Of a stretch of 56,953 nucleotides of DNA, positions 4,429-24,509 are shown in pieces. Origin of the DNA: Terriglobia bacterium (lineage in GTDB: Bacteria; Acidobacteriota; Terriglobia; Terriglobales; Acidobacteriaceae); assembly GCA_021324365.1 (NCBI GenBank), contig JAJPJE010000082.1:1-56953 (forward strand), in the 5' to 3' direction. The notes below the pieces were generated by a model. The model made no database searches. It was given only the letters and a program-made list of their open reading frames with translations, and was not told the origin of the DNA. Within the stretch, counting starts at the first letter, position 1. Each line of letters begins with the position of its first letter. Position numbers and translations under genes: made by a program.

Positions 4429-5379
4429 TTACTTCGGGCTGTCGCGGTGGACGGTTTTCGCGGCATATCCGGCTTTACGCAGGCGTTTCGCTAATTCTTC
4501 GGTGATCATGACCGAGCGGTGCTGCCCGCCCGTGCAACCAACACCTATGGTGAGATAGCTTTTGCCCTCTTTCACATAGTGCGGCAGCAGGAACGTAAGC
4601 AGGTCGGAGATGCGGTCCAGCGACTCCTGGGTTTGCGGAAACGATCGTATGTACTTGGCGACCTTCGGATGGCGCCCGGTCAGCGGCCGAAACTCCGGAA
4701 TGAAGTGCGGATTGGGCAGAAAGCGGACGTCGAACACCAGGTCGGCATCTTCGGGAACGCCTTCGCGGAAACCAAAGCTGACGACGGAAATCAGAATGTT
4801 GTTCTTATTCGACTCCTGCCGAAAACGATCGGTGATGTACGAGCGCAATTCGTGAACGTTGAACTTCGAGGTATCGATGAGTTCGTCGGCAATGGCAGAG
4901 ATAGGCGCCAGGCGCTTGCGCTCAGCCTTGAGAGACGCGCGCACGGGTGCGTGCGAGCCCAGCGGGTGCGGACGACGAGTCTCGCTGTAGCGGCGCATCA
5001 GGACTTCGTCATTCGCTTCGAGATAGACGACCTTCGCGGGGATGACTTTCTTCACTGCCTTGAGAACCGCAGGCAATTTGTCGAGGCCCGCGCCTTCCCG
5101 GACATCGACCACCAATGCTGCACGATGCGTCTCGGGCGACTGGCTGACCAATTCGGCGAACGCGGGGATCAGGTCAACCGGCATGTTATCGACGCAGTAG
5201 TAGCCCAGGTCTTCAAAGACTTTCAGCACCGACGCCTTGCCCGAGCCGCTCATGCCGGTGATGATCACCAACTCGGTCCCAGCATGAGGCTTGCGAATGT
5301 GCAGGCCGTCGTGCGCAATCATCTTGCGAATAGACTTCTTTCCTCTTTGATGTTTCGCCGAAGATTTTGCCGAGGCCAT
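4429..5379 (-). CDS. rapZ: RapZ, RNase adapter / nucleotide-binding protein
   Basis: The 316-residue protein has the RapZ/YvcJ layout: an N-terminal P-loop domain with GMSGSGKA at residues 42-49 followed by EDLGYYCVDNMPVDLIPAF, and a C-terminal domain ending with GCTGGQHRSVMITEELAKRL. In E. coli RapZ binds glucosamine-6-phosphate through the C-terminal domain and controls glmS by guiding RNase E to the sRNA GlmZ; in many other bacteria the family role is less clear. An extra basic N-terminal stretch of about 30 residues precedes the usual start, so the true start could be the internal methionine at residue 20. It lies downstream of lptB-rpoN-hpf, as in proteobacteria. Confidence 0.93.
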   Translation of the reverse strand: MASAKSSAKHQRGKKSIRKMIAHDGLHIRKPHAGTELVIITGMSGSGKASVLKVFEDLGYYCVDNMPVDLIPAFAELVSQSPETHRAALVVDVREGAGLDKLPAVLKAVKKVIPAKVVYLEANDEVLMRRYSETRRPHPLGSHAPVRASLKAERKRLAPISAIADELIDTSKFNVHELRSYITDRFRQESNKNNILISVVSFGFREGVPEDADLVFDVRFLPNPHFIPEFRPLTGRHPKVAKYIRSFPQTQESLDRISDLLTFLLPHYVKEGKSYLTIGVGCTGGQHRSVMITEELAKRLRKAGYAAKTVHRDSPK

Positions 5380-18057: not shown

Positions 18058-19170
18058 ATGAAAAGCAAGTCGATGTTGTGCCTCGCAGGTCTATTGTTCT
18101 TTGCATCCGCACTCCCCGCCGGACAGATCGAACGGCGCTACAAGGTACTTTCCCCTATTTCGCACGGCAATCTGACCATCTTTCCCGTCGTTGCCGCTGC
18201 TATCCACGATACCAGCGAATTTCTTACTTTGGATGAAGGCATTCGCTCCGGAGAGGTTGTCGTAACCGAATCGGGCAATGTCTCGCCGCTGATTCGGCGT
18301 CGCGGTACCTCTACGGCTTCGCCGCGAACAGGTCCGCAAGTCAATCAGTTGGTACTGATCAACAACTCGAAGCGCCCGCTGTTTTTGCTCGCAGGAGAAA
18401 TCGTAACGGGCGGCAAGCAGGATCGGATCATCGGAAAGGATCGCATCGTGCCCGCAGAGAGCGATCCCGTTGCCCTCGGCGTGTTCTGCGTGGAACCTGG
18501 ACGCTGGGTCGCACACAGCGACAAATTCGGAACCATCCCCGCTCTTGCGCAACCGAGTTTGCGCTCGAAAGCCATGGCCGATAAGAATCAACAGAAGGTC
18601 TGGGACCTGGTGGCGCAATCGCGAGCCACGATGATCGCAGCGGGTCCGCCGCCATCTCCAGGGGGCGCACCGAGCTCCCTCCGCTCCACGACCTCGTATG
18701 CGCAGGCCGTCGAGAGCCCTGAAGTAAGAAAGCAGCTGGACGATGTCGTTGTGCCCGTACAGCAGAGCTATACACAGCTGATGCATCAACTGCATGATCG
18801 AAACGCGGTCGGCGTCGTAGTCGCAGTCAATGGCGAAATCATCTGGGCGGACATCTTTGCCAGCCCCTCTCTGCTGGAGAAGTATTGGCCCAAACTGGTG
18901 CGATCGTATGCCGCCGAAGCTATGGTCGAAAGCGCTAACAATAAGCACGTAACGGAAAGTGCTGCCGAAACGTTTCTGGCGAATTTGCAGGGGAATCATG
19001 AGGTAGTAGACACCGAAGCAGGCGTCTTTCGGCAGGCGGAGATCAGTGGCGGAGGCTACAAGGTCTTTCAGTTAACCTCACTACTACCGAACACAGGCTT
19101 CGATGTTCACCTGGCGAAGATGACGATTGCCGACACCCCATCTATGATCGGAGGCGCCCGGCCGCAGTAA
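18058..19170 (+). CDS. Secreted ARPP-1-like (DUF6569-type) protein
   Basis: The ATG at 18058 follows a strong GGAGG with good spacing and opens a signal peptide (MKSKSMLCLAGLLFFASALP, cut near residue 21); an in-frame upstream extension is not supported. The mature part matches my memory of the ARPP-1 family, with LLAGEIVTGGKQDRIIGKDR and ALGVFCVEPGRW at the places of the family GAKQNR and CVEQGRW blocks. The family function is unknown; its members are usually cytoplasmic, so a signal peptide is unusual. Length is 370 residues. The gene is divergent from the sigma factor operon and may be part of its regulon. The family name is a recollection and should be checked by profile search. Confidence 0.68.
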   Translation: MKSKSMLCLAGLLFFASALPAGQIERRYKVLSPISHGNLTIFPVVAAAIHDTSEFLTLDEGIRSGEVVVTESGNVSPLIRRRGTSTASPRTGPQVNQLVLINNSKRPLFLLAGEIVTGGKQDRIIGKDRIVPAESDPVALGVFCVEPGRWVAHSDKFGTIPALAQPSLRSKAMADKNQQKVWDLVAQSRATMIAAGPPPSPGGAPSSLRSTTSYAQAVESPEVRKQLDDVVVPVQQSYTQLMHQLHDRNAVGVVVAVNGEIIWADIFASPSLLEKYWPKLVRSYAAEAMVESANNKHVTESAAETFLANLQGNHEVVDTEAGVFRQAEISGGGYKVFQLTSLLPNTGFDVHLAKMTIADTPSMIGGARPQ

Positions 19171-19242: not shown

Positions 19243-19989
19243 TCATCTAGGCAACAGCACCTTTCGCTGCCTCACGTCTTCGTTTGCACGCTGAATCTGC
19301 TCGGGCCGGCCGAGGTCTCGCCAGTAATACCGATCAGCCCGGAATGCGGAGATCCGCTCCCCCTGCATGGCCGCAACAAGATAGGAGTTGACGATCGAAA
19401 ACACGCCGTCTCCCTGCATCATGGTCAAGAAGCGCGGTGAGATCACGTGAACGCCGCAGAAGGCCAGAGCCTGCATCTCCGGAACCGTCCGGACCACTTC
19501 GTCCGGCTTGTTACTCATACTCCGGCCGCACAGGTATTCGTTTTCGTCGAAAAGCAGATGCCTGGAACTTTTTCGATCCTGCACGGCGAGCGTGGCCAGC
19601 GCCTCGCTTCCTTTATGTGCTTCGATCATGGCTGCAAGATCGATGTTGCTGAGAATGTCCACATTGTGGAGCAGAAAAGGTTCGCCAGATTTGCCCTCAC
19701 GAAAAAACCAGGCCGCCTTTTTCAGCCCCCCTCCGGTATCCAGCAGTATGTCTTCATGCGATACAGCAACTTTCATGCCGAAGTTGCGATTTACCTTCAG
19801 GTACTCCAGCATTAGATCCTCAAAATGATGCACATTGACGATGACGTCTCGTATTCCGAATGAGCGCAAGCGGGCGAGGGTGATGTCGAGCAACGTGCGT
19901 CCGGCGACTTCCACCAGGGCTTTGGGGCGGCGCTCGGTGAGCGGTCGCAGTCGCGTGCCAAGCCCCGCGGCCAGCACCATAGCTCTCAT
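19243..19989 (-). CDS. MurU-like sugar-1-phosphate nucleotidyltransferase
   Basis: The 248-residue enzyme begins MRAMVLAAGLGTRLRPLTER, the nucleotide-binding signature of the nucleotidyltransferase fold, with KALVEVAGRTLLD next and the metal-binding HNVDILSNIDL further on. Starting at 19989 makes the ATG overlap the stop of the upstream kinase gene by four bases; a longer frame would add 39 residues and break that coupling. MurU makes UDP-MurNAc from MurNAc-1-phosphate in cell-wall recycling, but mannose-1-phosphate or glucose-1-phosphate nucleotidyltransferases look similar. The neighbouring AmgK-like kinase favours the recycling assignment. Confidence 0.82.
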   Translation of the reverse strand: MRAMVLAAGLGTRLRPLTERRPKALVEVAGRTLLDITLARLRSFGIRDVIVNVHHFEDLMLEYLKVNRNFGMKVAVSHEDILLDTGGGLKKAAWFFREGKSGEPFLLHNVDILSNIDLAAMIEAHKGSEALATLAVQDRKSSRHLLFDENEYLCGRSMSNKPDEVVRTVPEMQALAFCGVHVISPRFLTMMQGDGVFSIVNSYLVAAMQGERISAFRADRYYWRDLGRPEQIQRANEDVRQRKVLLPR

Positions 19990-21413
19990 AGTCCCATGCG
20001 CTCCAGTTCGCGGTGCGTAACAACCACATCTACGCCATTCTTCGCGCGCAGATGTTTCGCGAGCTGTTCTGCCAGATAAACAGATCGATGCTGCCCACCG
20101 GTGCATCCGAACGCGACGCTGAGATTTTTGAAATTGCGCGATTGGTAATTGCTGATGCTGGCGTCAACCAATGAGATCACGTTTGCGAAGTACTGATGCA
20201 CGCTCGCCTGATGATCAAGATACTCGGCTACGGGAGAATCTCTTCCTGTCAGCGCTTTGAAGCGCTCTTCGCGCCCGGGATTCGGCAGGCTGCGCGCATC
20301 GAATATGTATCCGCCACCATGGCCGCTTTCGTCCTTCGGCAATCCACGATGAAATGAAAAACTGGTGACGCGGACCACGAGTTTGTCCGGTTCCGCAGCA
20401 ATGCTTTGCAACTTCTCCGAGCCCACCATGCTGCGGAATGCGTCCATCAAAGTTGGCAACGCAATCGGCAACTCAGCATTGTGCAGCAGCCAATGTAGGT
20501 TCTTAAGCGCGTAAGGGACGCTCTGCAGGAAGTGCTCTTTGCGTTCATAGAATCCGCGGAAACCATACGCACCGAGAGCCTGCATGATTCTTATATAAAC
20601 GAAGGCGTAATAGTGATGCAGGAACGCTTCGCGCGGAACGTCGGCGTATTGGCTCAGCGCTTCAAGATAATGATCGAGCAGTTGCCGGCGAAGATCGGGT
20701 GGCAGATCGGCCTTCGCGTCATAAAGAAGCGAGGCAACGTCGTATTGGAGCGCTCCCTTGCGGCCTCCCTGGTAATCCACAAACCATGGTTCGCTGTCGA
20801 TCAGCATGATGTTGCGGGACTGAAAATCGCGATAGAGAAAATAGTCGCGCGGAGCAGTTAGAAGAAACTTCGTCAGGCGGCTGAAATCGTCTTCGAGGGC
20901 CTGCTCGTTGAACGGCACCCCGGCAAGCCGCAGAAAATAGTATTTGAAGTAGTTCAGGTCCCAGGAGATGGATTGCCGATCGAAGCTGGCTCGCGGATAC
21001 GCAACCTTGTAATTCAAGTCACGCCCGGCTTCTACCTGGAAGCGAGGCAGGATGGCGATCGCTTTCCGATAAGCCTCAACGACTTCGGTGGAAATATCTT
21101 CGCCATCGCGGTTTTTTGAAAGGAAGTCAAACAGCGTCACATCGCCGAGATCCTGCTCGAGATAGGCACCATGCTCGAGATCTTCGGCATAAATTTCGGG
21201 TACCGGCAGCTTATGACGGCGGAAGTGCCGAGAGAATTCCAGAAAGGCGACATTCTCTTCGCGCACGTTGTAAAGAATGCCGACTGCGCTGGCCTTGTCC
21301 CGGCTGAGGCGAATGATGTTGCGGCCCGATCCGCTCAGTTGCCCCTGCAAAGGTTGCACGCGCGCAGGCGGCGCGTGGAAATGCTGCTCGAATAGTTGTT
21401 TCAGGACATCCAT
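19986..21413 (-). CDS. AmgK-like sugar kinase fused to a RapZ C-terminal domain
   Basis: Residues 1-330 form an aminoglycoside-phosphotransferase-type kinase like AmgK, with a catalytic loop at 194-201 (YRDFQSRN in place of the usual HxD....N) and the metal-binding DYQ at 213-215. Residues about 344-470 match the RapZ C-terminal domain: SFSFHRGLPKDE, FDARSLPNPG and GCTGGQHRSVYLAEQLAKHL. The RapZ P-loop domain is absent. AmgK phosphorylates MurNAc or GlcNAc at the anomeric position; the RapZ C-terminal domain binds glucosamine-6-phosphate in E. coli. A sensing or gating role for the added domain is inferred. The MurU-like gene overlaps by four bases. Confidence 0.85.
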   Translation of the reverse strand: MDVLKQLFEQHFHAPPARVQPLQGQLSGSGRNIIRLSRDKASAVGILYNVREENVAFLEFSRHFRRHKLPVPEIYAEDLEHGAYLEQDLGDVTLFDFLSKNRDGEDISTEVVEAYRKAIAILPRFQVEAGRDLNYKVAYPRASFDRQSISWDLNYFKYYFLRLAGVPFNEQALEDDFSRLTKFLLTAPRDYFLYRDFQSRNIMLIDSEPWFVDYQGGRKGALQYDVASLLYDAKADLPPDLRRQLLDHYLEALSQYADVPREAFLHHYYAFVYIRIMQALGAYGFRGFYERKEHFLQSVPYALKNLHWLLHNAELPIALPTLMDAFRSMVGSEKLQSIAAEPDKLVVRVTSFSFHRGLPKDESGHGGGYIFDARSLPNPGREERFKALTGRDSPVAEYLDHQASVHQYFANVISLVDASISNYQSRNFKNLSVAFGCTGGQHRSVYLAEQLAKHLRAKNGVDVVVTHRELERMGL

Positions 21414-21633: not shown

Positions 21634-21912
21634 TTACTTCTTATTGACTGCTTTTTTGAGATCCACTCCAGCAGTAAACTTCGCAACCCTGCGGGAATTG
21701 ATTTTAATGACAGTGCCAGTTTGCGGATTGCGTCCGTTCCGAGCCTTGCGTTGATAGGTGGAGAAGGTGCCGAAGCCGGAGAGAGTAACGCGGTCTCCCT
21801 TCTTCAGTGCGGAACTAATCCCTTCGATGACCGATTCGATGGTATGCGCGGCTTGCGCCTTGCTGATTCCCGTATCGGCGGCGATTTTCTCGATTAGATG
21901 ACCTTTATTCAC
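21634..21912 (-). CDS. HU family DNA-binding protein
   Basis: This 92-residue basic protein has the HU/IHF layout: two helices (NKGHLIEKIAADTGISKAQA), GDRVTLSGFGTFST and the DNA-binding arm KARNGRNPQTGTVIKI. HU dimers bend and coat DNA. A GTG start is used. A clear terminator follows. Several HU copies per genome are common, so no paralogue name is given. Confidence 0.95.
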   Translation of the reverse strand: MNKGHLIEKIAADTGISKAQAAHTIESVIEGISSALKKGDRVTLSGFGTFSTYQRKARNGRNPQTGTVIKINSRRVAKFTAGVDLKKAVNKK

Positions 21913-22058: not shown

Positions 22059-24509
22059 TTAGGCGGCAACCGGTTCGCCAGGGGGAGCAGCGGGTGATGG
22101 GATAGTAATCGCTATACGGAGCTTTTCGCCCAACTGGCGGAAGATCTCAGCCCATCGCCGTGCCTCGTCATCATCGAGATCAACCTGGCGGGGATAAAAC
22201 GTGTTGAGCAATCCGTAGTAGATATTCTGCGCTTCCCAGAGATTGACCTCGAAGGGCAGCATGCGAATCAAGGTCATGACATCGTCCATTTCGGAGAGGA
22301 GTTTCGAATCCCCCGGATTCTGCGCAACCGCTTGACTCGCTGCTGTGAGGCGCTTCTGCAGGTCAAACGCAAGATGTGCCTGATCGAGCATGAGGTCATC
22401 CCGATGGGCCTCTTCCAGAAGAGCACCGAAGCGCGCGAGGTCGAGAGGGCCTTCTGCAATTGCGCGGCGGAGTGCCTCATTGACCACGAACTGTGCAGTT
22501 ACCAGCATCACCTTTGGCATCGGCATGCGGATTTCGTGCAGAAAGCGCATCAGCGACGCATGGTTGTCGTAAATCAGGCGATAACTCGCGTTAGCTTCGT
22601 CAACCACATGTTGCAGAATGCGATCGACAACCCTCCGTTGCTCATCACGGAACAGCGATTTGATCGAGTACGACGTGCCTTCGAAGTTTCGATCCAGCAC
22701 TCGAATCGATTCCGGGACGTCAGAGTGATTGAAGGCATCCGCTGCTTCCCCGATCGTCTGCTCGTACGCTTCGTCGCCCTGAAAACGGCGCACTCCCGCG
22801 AGCAGATTGCTGTCCCCCAGATTCAGCACGGCGAAGGTCAGATCGGCAGAGTTGCGGGTGATTCGGGAACGAATCAACGCACGTCCCAAGGCTAGCTGCG
22901 TGCGTCCAGCTTGCAGAACGCGGCTGTCCTTCAATTCGGATTCGTAGCAGTAGATTTCCGTTCGATCGGTAAACCCGAAGTACAGCGAGCTGATCGCGTA
23001 GTGCGCGCCCACCCCGAGCAGGTTGACGGTGGCCGGCTTTACGTAGCGCTCATAGATTTCGGCGCCGTTCTTGAATTCCGGCAAATTAGAACGAGCTTGT
23101 GCCAGGTGCTCCATCAGATGCTGCTCGCGATGGTCGCCAAACAGATCCTGCGCCAACTGAACCGCTCGCGCGGCATACTGCATCACCTGAACCGTCTCAA
23201 TACCGGAGATCTCATCGAAGAACCAGCCGCAACTGGTGTACATCAGCATTTCGTGGCGCTGCATTTCCAGCAATTTGAGCAACAGCACCTCATCCTGCGC
23301 GCTCAACTCGCGGGCGCGATGGTGCGCCACGAACTCGTCGATGTTAGACGGCGTTCGATCGAGAACAACATCGATGTAATCATTGCGCGCCGCCCAGGGG
23401 TCCTTTACGAAATCGCGAGCTTTCTCTTCGAACGGCTGAACCAGATCTTCGCGCAGCCAGTCCAGTGAATCCCGCAACGGCTTGCGCCATTGCTGGTTCC
23501 ACCCCGGCCGCCCGGAATTGCAACCGCAGTCGCTTCGCCACCGTTCAATCCCGTGGGCGCACGACCACGACGTGTTCTCGACAATCTCGACCTCGTGGTT
23601 GGGCGGATGTTTTTCCAGGTACTCGCCGTAGTTCGTAATGGTTGCCAGCTTGTTGTTTTCGATGTATTCCAGGGCATATGCCAGTGCCATGTCACCGTGT
23701 GGGTGGTGATGCCCGTAGGTTTCGCCGTCCGTGGCAATATGCATGATCTGGGGATAATCACGATTGCTGAATCCGCCGAGCAGGCGATCGGCGAAAGTCT
23801 CACCGGAACTGAGCAGCTTCTCGAAGGCGACGGCTCGCGAAATCGGTCCGTCGTAGAAATACAGGCAGATGCGTTTTCCCGAAGGCAGCTTACACATATA
23901 CGGCATTTTTGGGTCAATTTTGCCGCCTTCGACGTTTTTCCAAGAACGGCCGGAACGCTTGGTTTGCCGTGCCTGGTGCGGAGCCAGAATGGTGAACTTG
24001 ATGCCTTGCTCGGCGAGAACTTCCAGGGTTTCGATGTCGACCGCTGTCTCTGCCAGCCACATGCCTTCGGGGAAGCGTCCGAAGCGCGATTCGAAATCGC
24101 GAATGCCCCACCTGACCTGAGTTTCCTTATCGCGCCGATTTGCGAGCGGCATAATGACGTGGTTATAGACCTGTGCGATGGCGTTGCCGTGGCCTGAGAA
24201 TCGCTCTCGCGAAATGCGGTCGGCCTCAAGGATCGACTGGTATACCAGCGGACTGCTCACTTCCATCCAGGAGAGCAGAGTCGGGCCAAAGTTGAAGCTG
24301 ATGCGGCTATAGTTATTCACCAGCTTTGTGATCCGGCCTTCACCGTCAAGAATGCGGGAGGCTGAGTTTGCGGCGTAGCACTCGGCCGTGATTCGCTCGT
24401 TCCAGTCATGATAGGGAAATGCAGAATCCTGCTGCTCGATTGCCTCAAGCCATGGGTTTTCCCGTGGCGGCTGGTAGAAGTGGGCGTGAATGCAAACATA
24501 ACGTTCCAT
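22059..24509 (-). CDS. GH57-type glycoside hydrolase with DUF3536
   Basis: The 816-residue protein begins MERYVCIHAHFYQPPRENPW, a start shared by GH57-type proteins carrying DUF3536, and continues with FPEGMWLAETAVDIETLEVL and HIATDGETYGHHHPHGDMAL, both typical GH57 segments with candidate catalytic acid residues. Alpha-amylase or glucan-branching activity is common in GH57, but members with DUF3536 are poorly studied, so the substrate stays open. No signal peptide is seen, so a cytoplasmic enzyme is expected. It is divergent from the DnaC-like gene with 200 bases between. Confidence 0.83.
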   Translation of the reverse strand: MERYVCIHAHFYQPPRENPWLEAIEQQDSAFPYHDWNERITAECYAANSASRILDGEGRITKLVNNYSRISFNFGPTLLSWMEVSSPLVYQSILEADRISRERFSGHGNAIAQVYNHVIMPLANRRDKETQVRWGIRDFESRFGRFPEGMWLAETAVDIETLEVLAEQGIKFTILAPHQARQTKRSGRSWKNVEGGKIDPKMPYMCKLPSGKRICLYFYDGPISRAVAFEKLLSSGETFADRLLGGFSNRDYPQIMHIATDGETYGHHHPHGDMALAYALEYIENNKLATITNYGEYLEKHPPNHEVEIVENTSWSCAHGIERWRSDCGCNSGRPGWNQQWRKPLRDSLDWLREDLVQPFEEKARDFVKDPWAARNDYIDVVLDRTPSNIDEFVAHHRARELSAQDEVLLLKLLEMQRHEMLMYTSCGWFFDEISGIETVQVMQYAARAVQLAQDLFGDHREQHLMEHLAQARSNLPEFKNGAEIYERYVKPATVNLLGVGAHYAISSLYFGFTDRTEIYCYESELKDSRVLQAGRTQLALGRALIRSRITRNSADLTFAVLNLGDSNLLAGVRRFQGDEAYEQTIGEAADAFNHSDVPESIRVLDRNFEGTSYSIKSLFRDEQRRVVDRILQHVVDEANASYRLIYDNHASLMRFLHEIRMPMPKVMLVTAQFVVNEALRRAIAEGPLDLARFGALLEEAHRDDLMLDQAHLAFDLQKRLTAASQAVAQNPGDSKLLSEMDDVMTLIRMLPFEVNLWEAQNIYYGLLNTFYPRQVDLDDDEARRWAEIFRQLGEKLRIAITIPSPAAPPGEPVAA

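Follow-up and report, generated by a model that had tools for sequence, protein, structure and literature searches.

The stretch analysed here (the window) is a contig of 56,953 nucleotides from a Terriglobia bacterium of the Acidobacteriaceae (JAJPJE010000082.1, assembly GCA_021324365.1), and on its reverse strand it encodes a protein in which a sugar kinase resembling AmgK is joined to the C-terminal domain (CTD) of RapZ, directly followed by the gene of a MurU-like nucleotidyltransferase (Table 1). In the translated open reading frame (ORF) the motifs Y194-R195-D196, D213-Y214-Q215 and GCTGGQHRSV (436-445) stand where a preliminary description of the sequence had placed them. Pfam recognises APH (residues 53-256, E 1.1e-10) and the RapZ C-terminal domain (346-471, E 1.5e-36), and the P-loop domain that forms the N-terminus of RapZ has no Pfam match in this protein, just as had been described. 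The mechanical ORF of the MurU-like gene extends to 20106, but homology sets the start at 19989, so that the ATG overlaps the TGA stop of the fusion by four bases; this overlap and the separate, complete RapZ gene had also been described correctly.

Only the two AmgK models of the NCBIfam kinase models match the window protein, and with 53.0 bits (NF045698) and 51.5 bits (NF045759) they stay below their equivalog cut-offs of 500 and 550. This cut-off is strict, as an AmgK homologue of Legionella likewise misses it with 263 bits. Among the fusions in an alignment of 57 sequences (A1; like the 56 sequences of A2, it covers part of the fusion loci), the AmgK models match 57/57 and 56/57, and Bud32 and TIGR02172 match two each. 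D196, N201 and D213 are conserved in at least 90% of these 57 fusions, as expected for the catalytic Asp, the Asn and the metal-binding Asp of the APH fold, in which D196 presumably serves as the catalytic residue and D213 as the metal ligand. An AlphaFold2 model of the whole fusion, based on the 57 natural sequences, is a confident two-domain structure (pLDDT 91.6, pTM 0.70). The best structural match of its kinase part is 3csv (Z 29.0, root-mean-square deviation (rmsd) 2.7, 306 aligned residues, 22% identity), which carries a family-level name only, followed by the corramycin kinase (Z 27.1) and, lower among many, N-acetylhexosamine 1-kinase (Z 20.2). For the partner protein, the NCBIfam model of MurU ranks first of 41 families with 121.8 bits, below its equivalog cut-off of 250. 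MurU models also rank first in the four relatives scanned, and the best solved relative of the window protein is 4y7t (E 1.4e-19, first of 33), the MurU of P. putida. The specificity assigned to kinase and transferase is a matter of family resemblance below the curated cut-offs.

Table 1. Positions in the window of the kinase-CTD fusion, its parts, the MurU-like gene and the RapZ paralogue
Feature	Position	Strand	Basis or remark
AmgK-like kinase + RapZ-type CTD fusion	19986..21413	-	475 aa, coordinates include the stop codon
Kinase part, residues 1-338 (Pfam APH 53-256)	20400..21413	-	Pfam, structure match 3csv
D196 of YRD, predicted catalytic Asp	20826..20828	-	at least 90% conserved in 57 fusions
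D213 of DYQ, predicted metal ligand	20775..20777	-	at least 90% conserved in 57 fusions
RapZ-type C-terminal domain, residues 346-471	20001..20378	-	Pfam, structure model
DESGHGGG, residues 361-368, contains the five-residue insert that sets the subfamily apart from RapZ	20310..20333	-	alignment
NPGR, residues 378-381; Gly380 in place of RapZ pocket His190	20271..20282	-	alignment
CTGGQHRS, residues 437-444, C-x2-G-x2-R-S predicted anion-binding loop	20082..20105	-	alignment
MurU-like nucleotidyltransferase, 248 aa	19243..19989	-	Pfam, NCBIfam, best solved relative 4y7t
ATGA overlap of kinase-CTD stop and MurU start	19986..19989	-	sequence
Full-length RapZ, paralogue of the CTD, outside the salvage unit	4429..5379	-	both RapZ Pfam domains; NCBIfam RapZ 352 bits, cut-off 244

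Spread of the fusion and its gene neighbourhood

A scan of a collection of species genomes found relatives of the fusion at 80 or more loci with 50-78% identity, nearly all of them in metagenome-assembled genomes (MAGs), and this recurrence rules out an assembly artefact as its source. The record names at these loci comprise Acidobacteria, Calditrichaeota, KSB1, Elusimicrobia, Neomarinimicrobiota, Bacteroidetes, Ignavibacteriales, Opitutia/Verrucomicrobia and Deferribacteres, and thus at least seven phyla. The preliminary description had proposed a survey across acidobacteria; the expected conservation in relatives was found, but the acidobacterial scope proved too narrow. In the window's own family the fusion occurs in 4 of 15 sampled genomes (one of them the window's), and in the remaining 11 the match is confined to the CTD, like that of RapZ; in the sample of the whole phylum it is present in 4 of 149 genomes. 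In a sample of 148 Bacteroidota genomes the kinase-CTD unit is found in 20, fused in 17 and split in three (genomes G226, G290 and G207), next to one kinase without a CTD (G204) and 29 solo kinases of about 29% identity.

By tblastn, 75 of the 84 fusion loci have the MurU-like gene as their next downstream gene, in the same orientation (L065 and L076 were dropped by a coverage rule), so that the coupling asserted in the preliminary description, and with it the neighbour expected for an AmgK, is widespread. The spacing is at most 50 bases in 66 of the 75 loci, the farthest gene is 325 bases away, and 44 loci have the same four-base overlap as the window. One of the nine loci without an adjacent MurU-like gene ends at a contig edge and the other eight all belong to Bacteroidota, where in five of the six genomes searched a MurU-like gene (38-46% identity) is located elsewhere. 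The ORF caller that was used for grouping neighbours placed MurU in only 57 loci, as compared to 75 by tblastn, and therefore misses genes; no other recurring neighbour family was seen with it around the fusion loci, the next group comprising at most nine loci and resembling antisense ORFs.

The pairing is the one of the AmgK-MurU recycling branch of Pseudomonas, Caulobacter, Legionella and Tannerella, where the same two families are often encoded adjacently, and in Legionella adelaidensis the two genes overlap by four bases as well. What sets the present loci apart is the RapZ-type CTD that is fused or adjacent here, whereas Pseudomonas and Caulobacter use MupP beforehand (PMC5371407, PMC13046382). 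A fusion of comparable design is TsaE-AmgK of alphaproteobacteria, in which an AmgK kinase also has an extra domain and is followed by MurU (Sinorhizobium), but there the extra domain is TsaE and lies at the N-terminus. Such a gene, with a MurU-like gene, was seen on pSymB of Sinorhizobium meliloti (L181:2362-4614).

In Bacteroides finegoldii (L112:7986-9416) and Parabacteroides distasonis (L204:5986-7416) the fusion is recorded under the name "RNase adapter RapZ", and in both species a nucleotidyltransferase gene follows directly. This database name is wrong for the fusion. No further protein with a RapZ CTD was seen in 23 of a selection of 51 fusion genomes, of which many are MAGs; this set, which also serves for the pathway counts below, consists of the window's genome, three relatives, and the genomes of 47 of the 80 loci, chosen for spread. 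No paper describing the kinase-RapZ CTD fusion was found in a search of open-licence papers, whose limited range makes this a weak negative. Apparently new are the combination of known parts, the subfamily of separable CTDs, and the hypothesis of a phosphatase set out below.

As for the other genes of the window, the full-length RapZ gene shares its strand with genes of the LptC/LptD_N type, an ABC ATPase, sigma-54, and ribosome hibernation. A protein with an ARPP-1 domain (PF20208, E 6.3e-64) is encoded at 18058-19170, convergent with the MurU-like gene, and is absent from the recurring neighbours. Upstream of the fusion and on the same strand, there is an HU-like gene at 21634-21912 and, by Pfam, a GH57/DUF3536 protein at 22059-24509.

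A separable C-terminal domain distinct from RapZ

The CTD modelled alone (pLDDT 92.3, pTM 0.86) matches best the CTD of E. coli RapZ, 5o5s (Z 20.7, rmsd 1.4, 123 aligned residues), and the next match is phosphofructokinase with Z 6.8. It shares with E. coli RapZ and B. subtilis YvcJ the C-T-G-G-x-H-R-S loop, but differs from them in several respects. It has no P-loop domain in front, and the NCBIfam model of RapZ reaches 118 bits on the fusion, against a cut-off of 244, so that the two-domain architecture of RapZ is not given. The pocket of E. coli RapZ is formed by H190, T248, G249, H252 and R253 (PMC5737377, PMC9841335). Among 81 fusions (the 84 loci minus L032, L064 and L069, which were excluded for their length) T248, H252 and R253 are present in all and G249 in 80, as the pocket-residue check of the preliminary description demanded, but H190 is replaced by Gly in all 81, and a five-residue Gly-rich insert, adjoining a GGG stretch, precedes this position. 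The ligand of the CTD therefore probably differs from that of RapZ. Of the RapZ positions that contact RNA, R238 is occupied by Phe and R184 by Arg in all 81 fusions, while 80 have a basic residue (His, Lys or Arg) at K170 and 61 have Lys or Arg at R196.

In a tree of 60 fused CTDs, 12 stand-alone CTDs and 29 RapZ rows (28 loci and E. coli), the RapZ rows group together with 100/99 support; at the level of sequence, the fusion CTDs are a clade of their own, a subfamily distinct from RapZ. Invariant in all 72 fused or stand-alone CTDs are C437, T438, G440, H442, R443, S444, D361, D372, D392, R374, N378 and H467, and the C, H, R and S of the loop are invariant also in the 29 RapZ rows.

The stand-alone CTDs come from 395 genomes of a Bacteroidota sample (the collection's phylum of the Gaoshiqia genome, including an Ignavibacteriales genome), of which 49 have the domain (PF22740), 37 of them in frames of 476-524 residues and 12 in frames of 134-169 residues; a frame of RapZ length was not found among these 49 matches. 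Eight of the 12 stand-alone CTDs lie between the kinase and MurU (L183, L188-L194) with an own ATG 3-133 bases past the kinase stop, one adjoins MurU alone (L187), and three have neither gene beside them within about 3 kb each way (L184, L185, L186). In the four genomes in which the CTD is thus unlinked from the kinase (L184-L187), a kinase of the fusion lineage is encoded elsewhere (32-43% identity), with no MurU-like gene in its 1.5-kb flanks. None of the 12 genomes whose CTD stands alone has lost the kinase, so that both have been retained despite the split, and the stand-alone CTDs preserve the loop along with the conserved Asp and His. In G204, a kinase of the fusion lineage is followed by MurU, and a CTD was not found; AnmK is missing there as well. 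For the seven genomes of the clade L188-L194, a frameshift as origin of the stand-alone CTDs was rejected, as each CTD has an ATG of its own 29-133 bases past the kinase stop; L183 has one in-frame stop with an ATG three bases on, and here a sequence error remains possible.

The kinase tree (127 rows; Acidobacteria thinned, L023 and several partial loci left out) places 77 fused, eight split, four unlinked and one CTD-less kinase on one side of a branch with an SH-aLRT (Shimodaira-Hasegawa-like approximate likelihood ratio test) support of 97. The split forms are nested among fused forms, and by the starred branches the split state must have arisen two or more times, as judged by a quick method and with several long branches in the tree. 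In 35 solo-kinase loci that were used as control, a CTD was nearby in none (flanks covered) and a MurU-like match was present in 27. Taken together, the comparisons of sequences and gene order show that the AmgK-type kinase, the RapZ-like CTD and the MurU-type nucleotidyltransferase occur as a set, in most cases fused or as neighbours.

Some further observations were made on stand-alone domains. A similar transporter follows the CTD at L184:2127-3407 and L186:2273-3550, and the L184 copy is an MFS protein by Pfam. Of 288 Verrucomicrobiota genomes, six encode the domain. It belongs to a frame of fusion length in one of them and to a fragment at the end of a contig in another; the remaining four have between them five stand-alone copies, with neither kinase nor MurU in the flanking sequence covered. 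These copies (L205:3982-4413, L206:4130-4636, L207:3876-4337, L208:4298-4825, L209:4427-4870) have differing neighbourhoods, L207 being flanked by genes that by eye resemble rmlD and rmlB. At the H190 position Phe, Tyr or His takes the place of Gly in four of the five, and two vary within the loop with retention of C-x2-G-x2-R-S.

Probable muramic acid salvage and possible roles of the domain

It is very likely that the genes constitute a unit for the salvage of muramic acid with a separable CTD component. As the best overall explanation, it is proposed tentatively, at somewhat below even chances, that the CTD of this unit is a phosphatase of N-acetylmuramic acid 6-phosphate (MurNAc-6-P). The CTD would bind MurNAc-6-P, the product of AnmK and as a 6-phosphorylated amino sugar its most likely ligand, in the C-x5-R-S loop and may remove the phosphate to yield N-acetylmuramic acid (MurNAc), which the fused kinase, going by its family, would convert to MurNAc-1-P, from which MurU, again going by its family, would make UDP-MurNAc. 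The CTD would thus be the counterpart of the HAD phosphatase MupP, which carries out the step before AmgK in Pseudomonas (PMC5371407) and of which Caulobacter also has a homologue (PMC13046382). That the CTD may be an enzyme of the route is suggested by the gene order kinase-CTD-MurU and the retention of split forms, beside the chemistry of the loop. The phosphatase step by the CTD, taken alone, is given slightly less credence than the overall explanation.

The C-x2-G-x2-R-S spacing is that of tyrosine-phosphatase loops, and in the predicted model a strand ends with the Cys and the next helix begins with the Arg, as in enzymes of the C-x5-R tyrosine-phosphatase type, where the loop also lies between strand and helix. 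The RapZ loop binds malonate or, in a model, sulphate (PMC5737377). In E. coli RapZ, C247A and C247S each abolish the activity, a catalytic -SH has been suggested by the authors, and the density in a crystal of the RapZ CTD with glucosamine-6-phosphate (GlcN6P) has been described as "likely a chemically transformed product" (PMC9841335). The word "phosphatase" is absent from that paper, and no phosphatase reading of RapZ was encountered among the papers listed in a search of open-licence literature, which is again a weak negative because of that limit.

AnmK is above its cut-off in 47 of the 51 selected fusion genomes, and as MurQ is common there as well, MurNAc-6-P should be made in them and have another outlet; the window's genome has both AnmK and MurQ. 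AnmK is present in 58 of 149 Acidobacteriota genomes, in all four with the fusion compared to 6 of the 56 listed with a solo AmgK-like kinase (p 4e-4; these solo-kinase genomes are undercounted and number at least 56). In the Bacteroidota sample AnmK occurs in 103 of 148 genomes overall, in 14 of 20 with the kinase-CTD unit versus none of 29 with a solo kinase (p 6e-8), and in 89 of 98 with neither type of kinase; these statistics ignore kinship, and the genome lists were matched by eye. The solo kinases (L006-L031, L171-L179; about 25-34% identity) are mostly found in genomes without AnmK and may accordingly draw MurNAc from another source or act on another substrate.

Several points weigh against a phosphatase in a muramic-acid route. 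MurQ is above its cut-off in 34 of the 51 fusion genomes and strong (E < 1e-60) in 41, the window's genome included, so that the CTD is not the sole outlet for MurNAc-6-P. An absence of MurQ was tested as proof of a need for a phosphatase, and this failed. AnmK is not enriched with the unit over the Bacteroidota background, the comparison with genomes of neither kinase type (p 0.02) pointing in the wrong direction, and AnmK is missing from six Bacteroidota genomes in which the unit occurs. In G500, G465 and G375 a MurU-like gene was found beside neither the CTD nor the kinase, the search being confined to these surroundings. The bit scores of kinase and partner lie far under the equivalog cut-offs (53 versus 500, and 122 versus 250). 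By fold the CTD resembles RapZ and, much less closely, phosphofructokinase; the Foldseek and VIA matches listed for it include no tyrosine phosphatase, an absence that excludes nothing, and in this the putative phosphatase differs from the C-x5-R phosphatases. A general acid has not been established for the CTD. As the C247 mutants of RapZ lose RNA binding too (PMC9841335), the Cys could be structural. Finally, a stand-alone CTD would fit a regulatory subunit equally well.

The main rival is accordingly a sensor, in which GlcN6P or another amino-sugar 6-phosphate switches the kinase, either within the same chain or from a separate subunit. The isolated CTD of E. coli RapZ binds GlcN6P with a dissociation constant of 10 nM (PMC7073468), the other pocket residues are kept in the fusions, a separable sensor subunit accounts for most of the same facts, and sensing would make sense since the strong MurQ of many fusion genomes puts MurNAc-6-P at a branch point. 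On the other side stands the Gly at the position of H190, as H190A abolishes RapZ function (PMC9841335), yet His is found at this position in 20 of 29 RapZ rows only. The Gly-rich insert suggests a different ligand. In four genomes the CTD is a separate gene, unlinked from the kinase, so that a gate within one chain cannot be the whole story, and after fission the CTD still has its loop and its conserved Asp and His. The GlcN6P sensor that the preliminary description had gating the kinase is not supported in that form for these reasons, and also the broader sensor is considered rather unlikely. That wall recycling is tied to amino-sugar phosphates is still possible.

It is improbable that the pair makes another nucleotide sugar, of the N-acetylglucosamine, heptose or mannose type, and merely resembles AmgK and MurU. 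Such a role would account for the low scores of both proteins and for the nearest solved kinases, 3csv with its family name and the corramycin kinase, but no specific kinase family other than AmgK matches throughout (57/57) and MurU models come first for the partner. Moreover, Parabacteroides distasonis, which has the fusion, belongs to the same family as T. forsythia, from which AmgK is known (PMC13041923), a link at the level of taxa only. Least probable of all is a remnant of RapZ for dimerisation or RNA binding without a metabolic role: RapZ CTDs do dimerise and bind RNA (PMC5737377, PMC9841335) and the RNA-contact positions are partly still basic, but R238 has become Phe throughout, the C-x5-R-S loop is invariant at C, H, R and S, and the kinase accompanies every stand-alone CTD of the 12 genomes, with one CTD-less kinase known.

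If the CTD is indeed a MurNAc-6-P phosphatase fused to a 1-kinase, the RapZ C-terminal fold may more generally be a C-x5-R-S sugar-6-phosphate phosphatase, and canonical RapZ, in which C247 is essential, would have descended from such an enzyme or still be one; this extension is slightly more speculative than the phosphatase step itself. It would give a chemical hypothesis for the RapZ domain, the role of whose essential cysteine is left open in PMC9841335. The proposal would also add, for several phyla, a third member to the AmgK-MurU route, the database name "RNase adapter RapZ" would be corrected for the fusion proteins, and the lone stand-alone protein of about 135 residues would be predicted to release phosphate from MurNAc-6-P.

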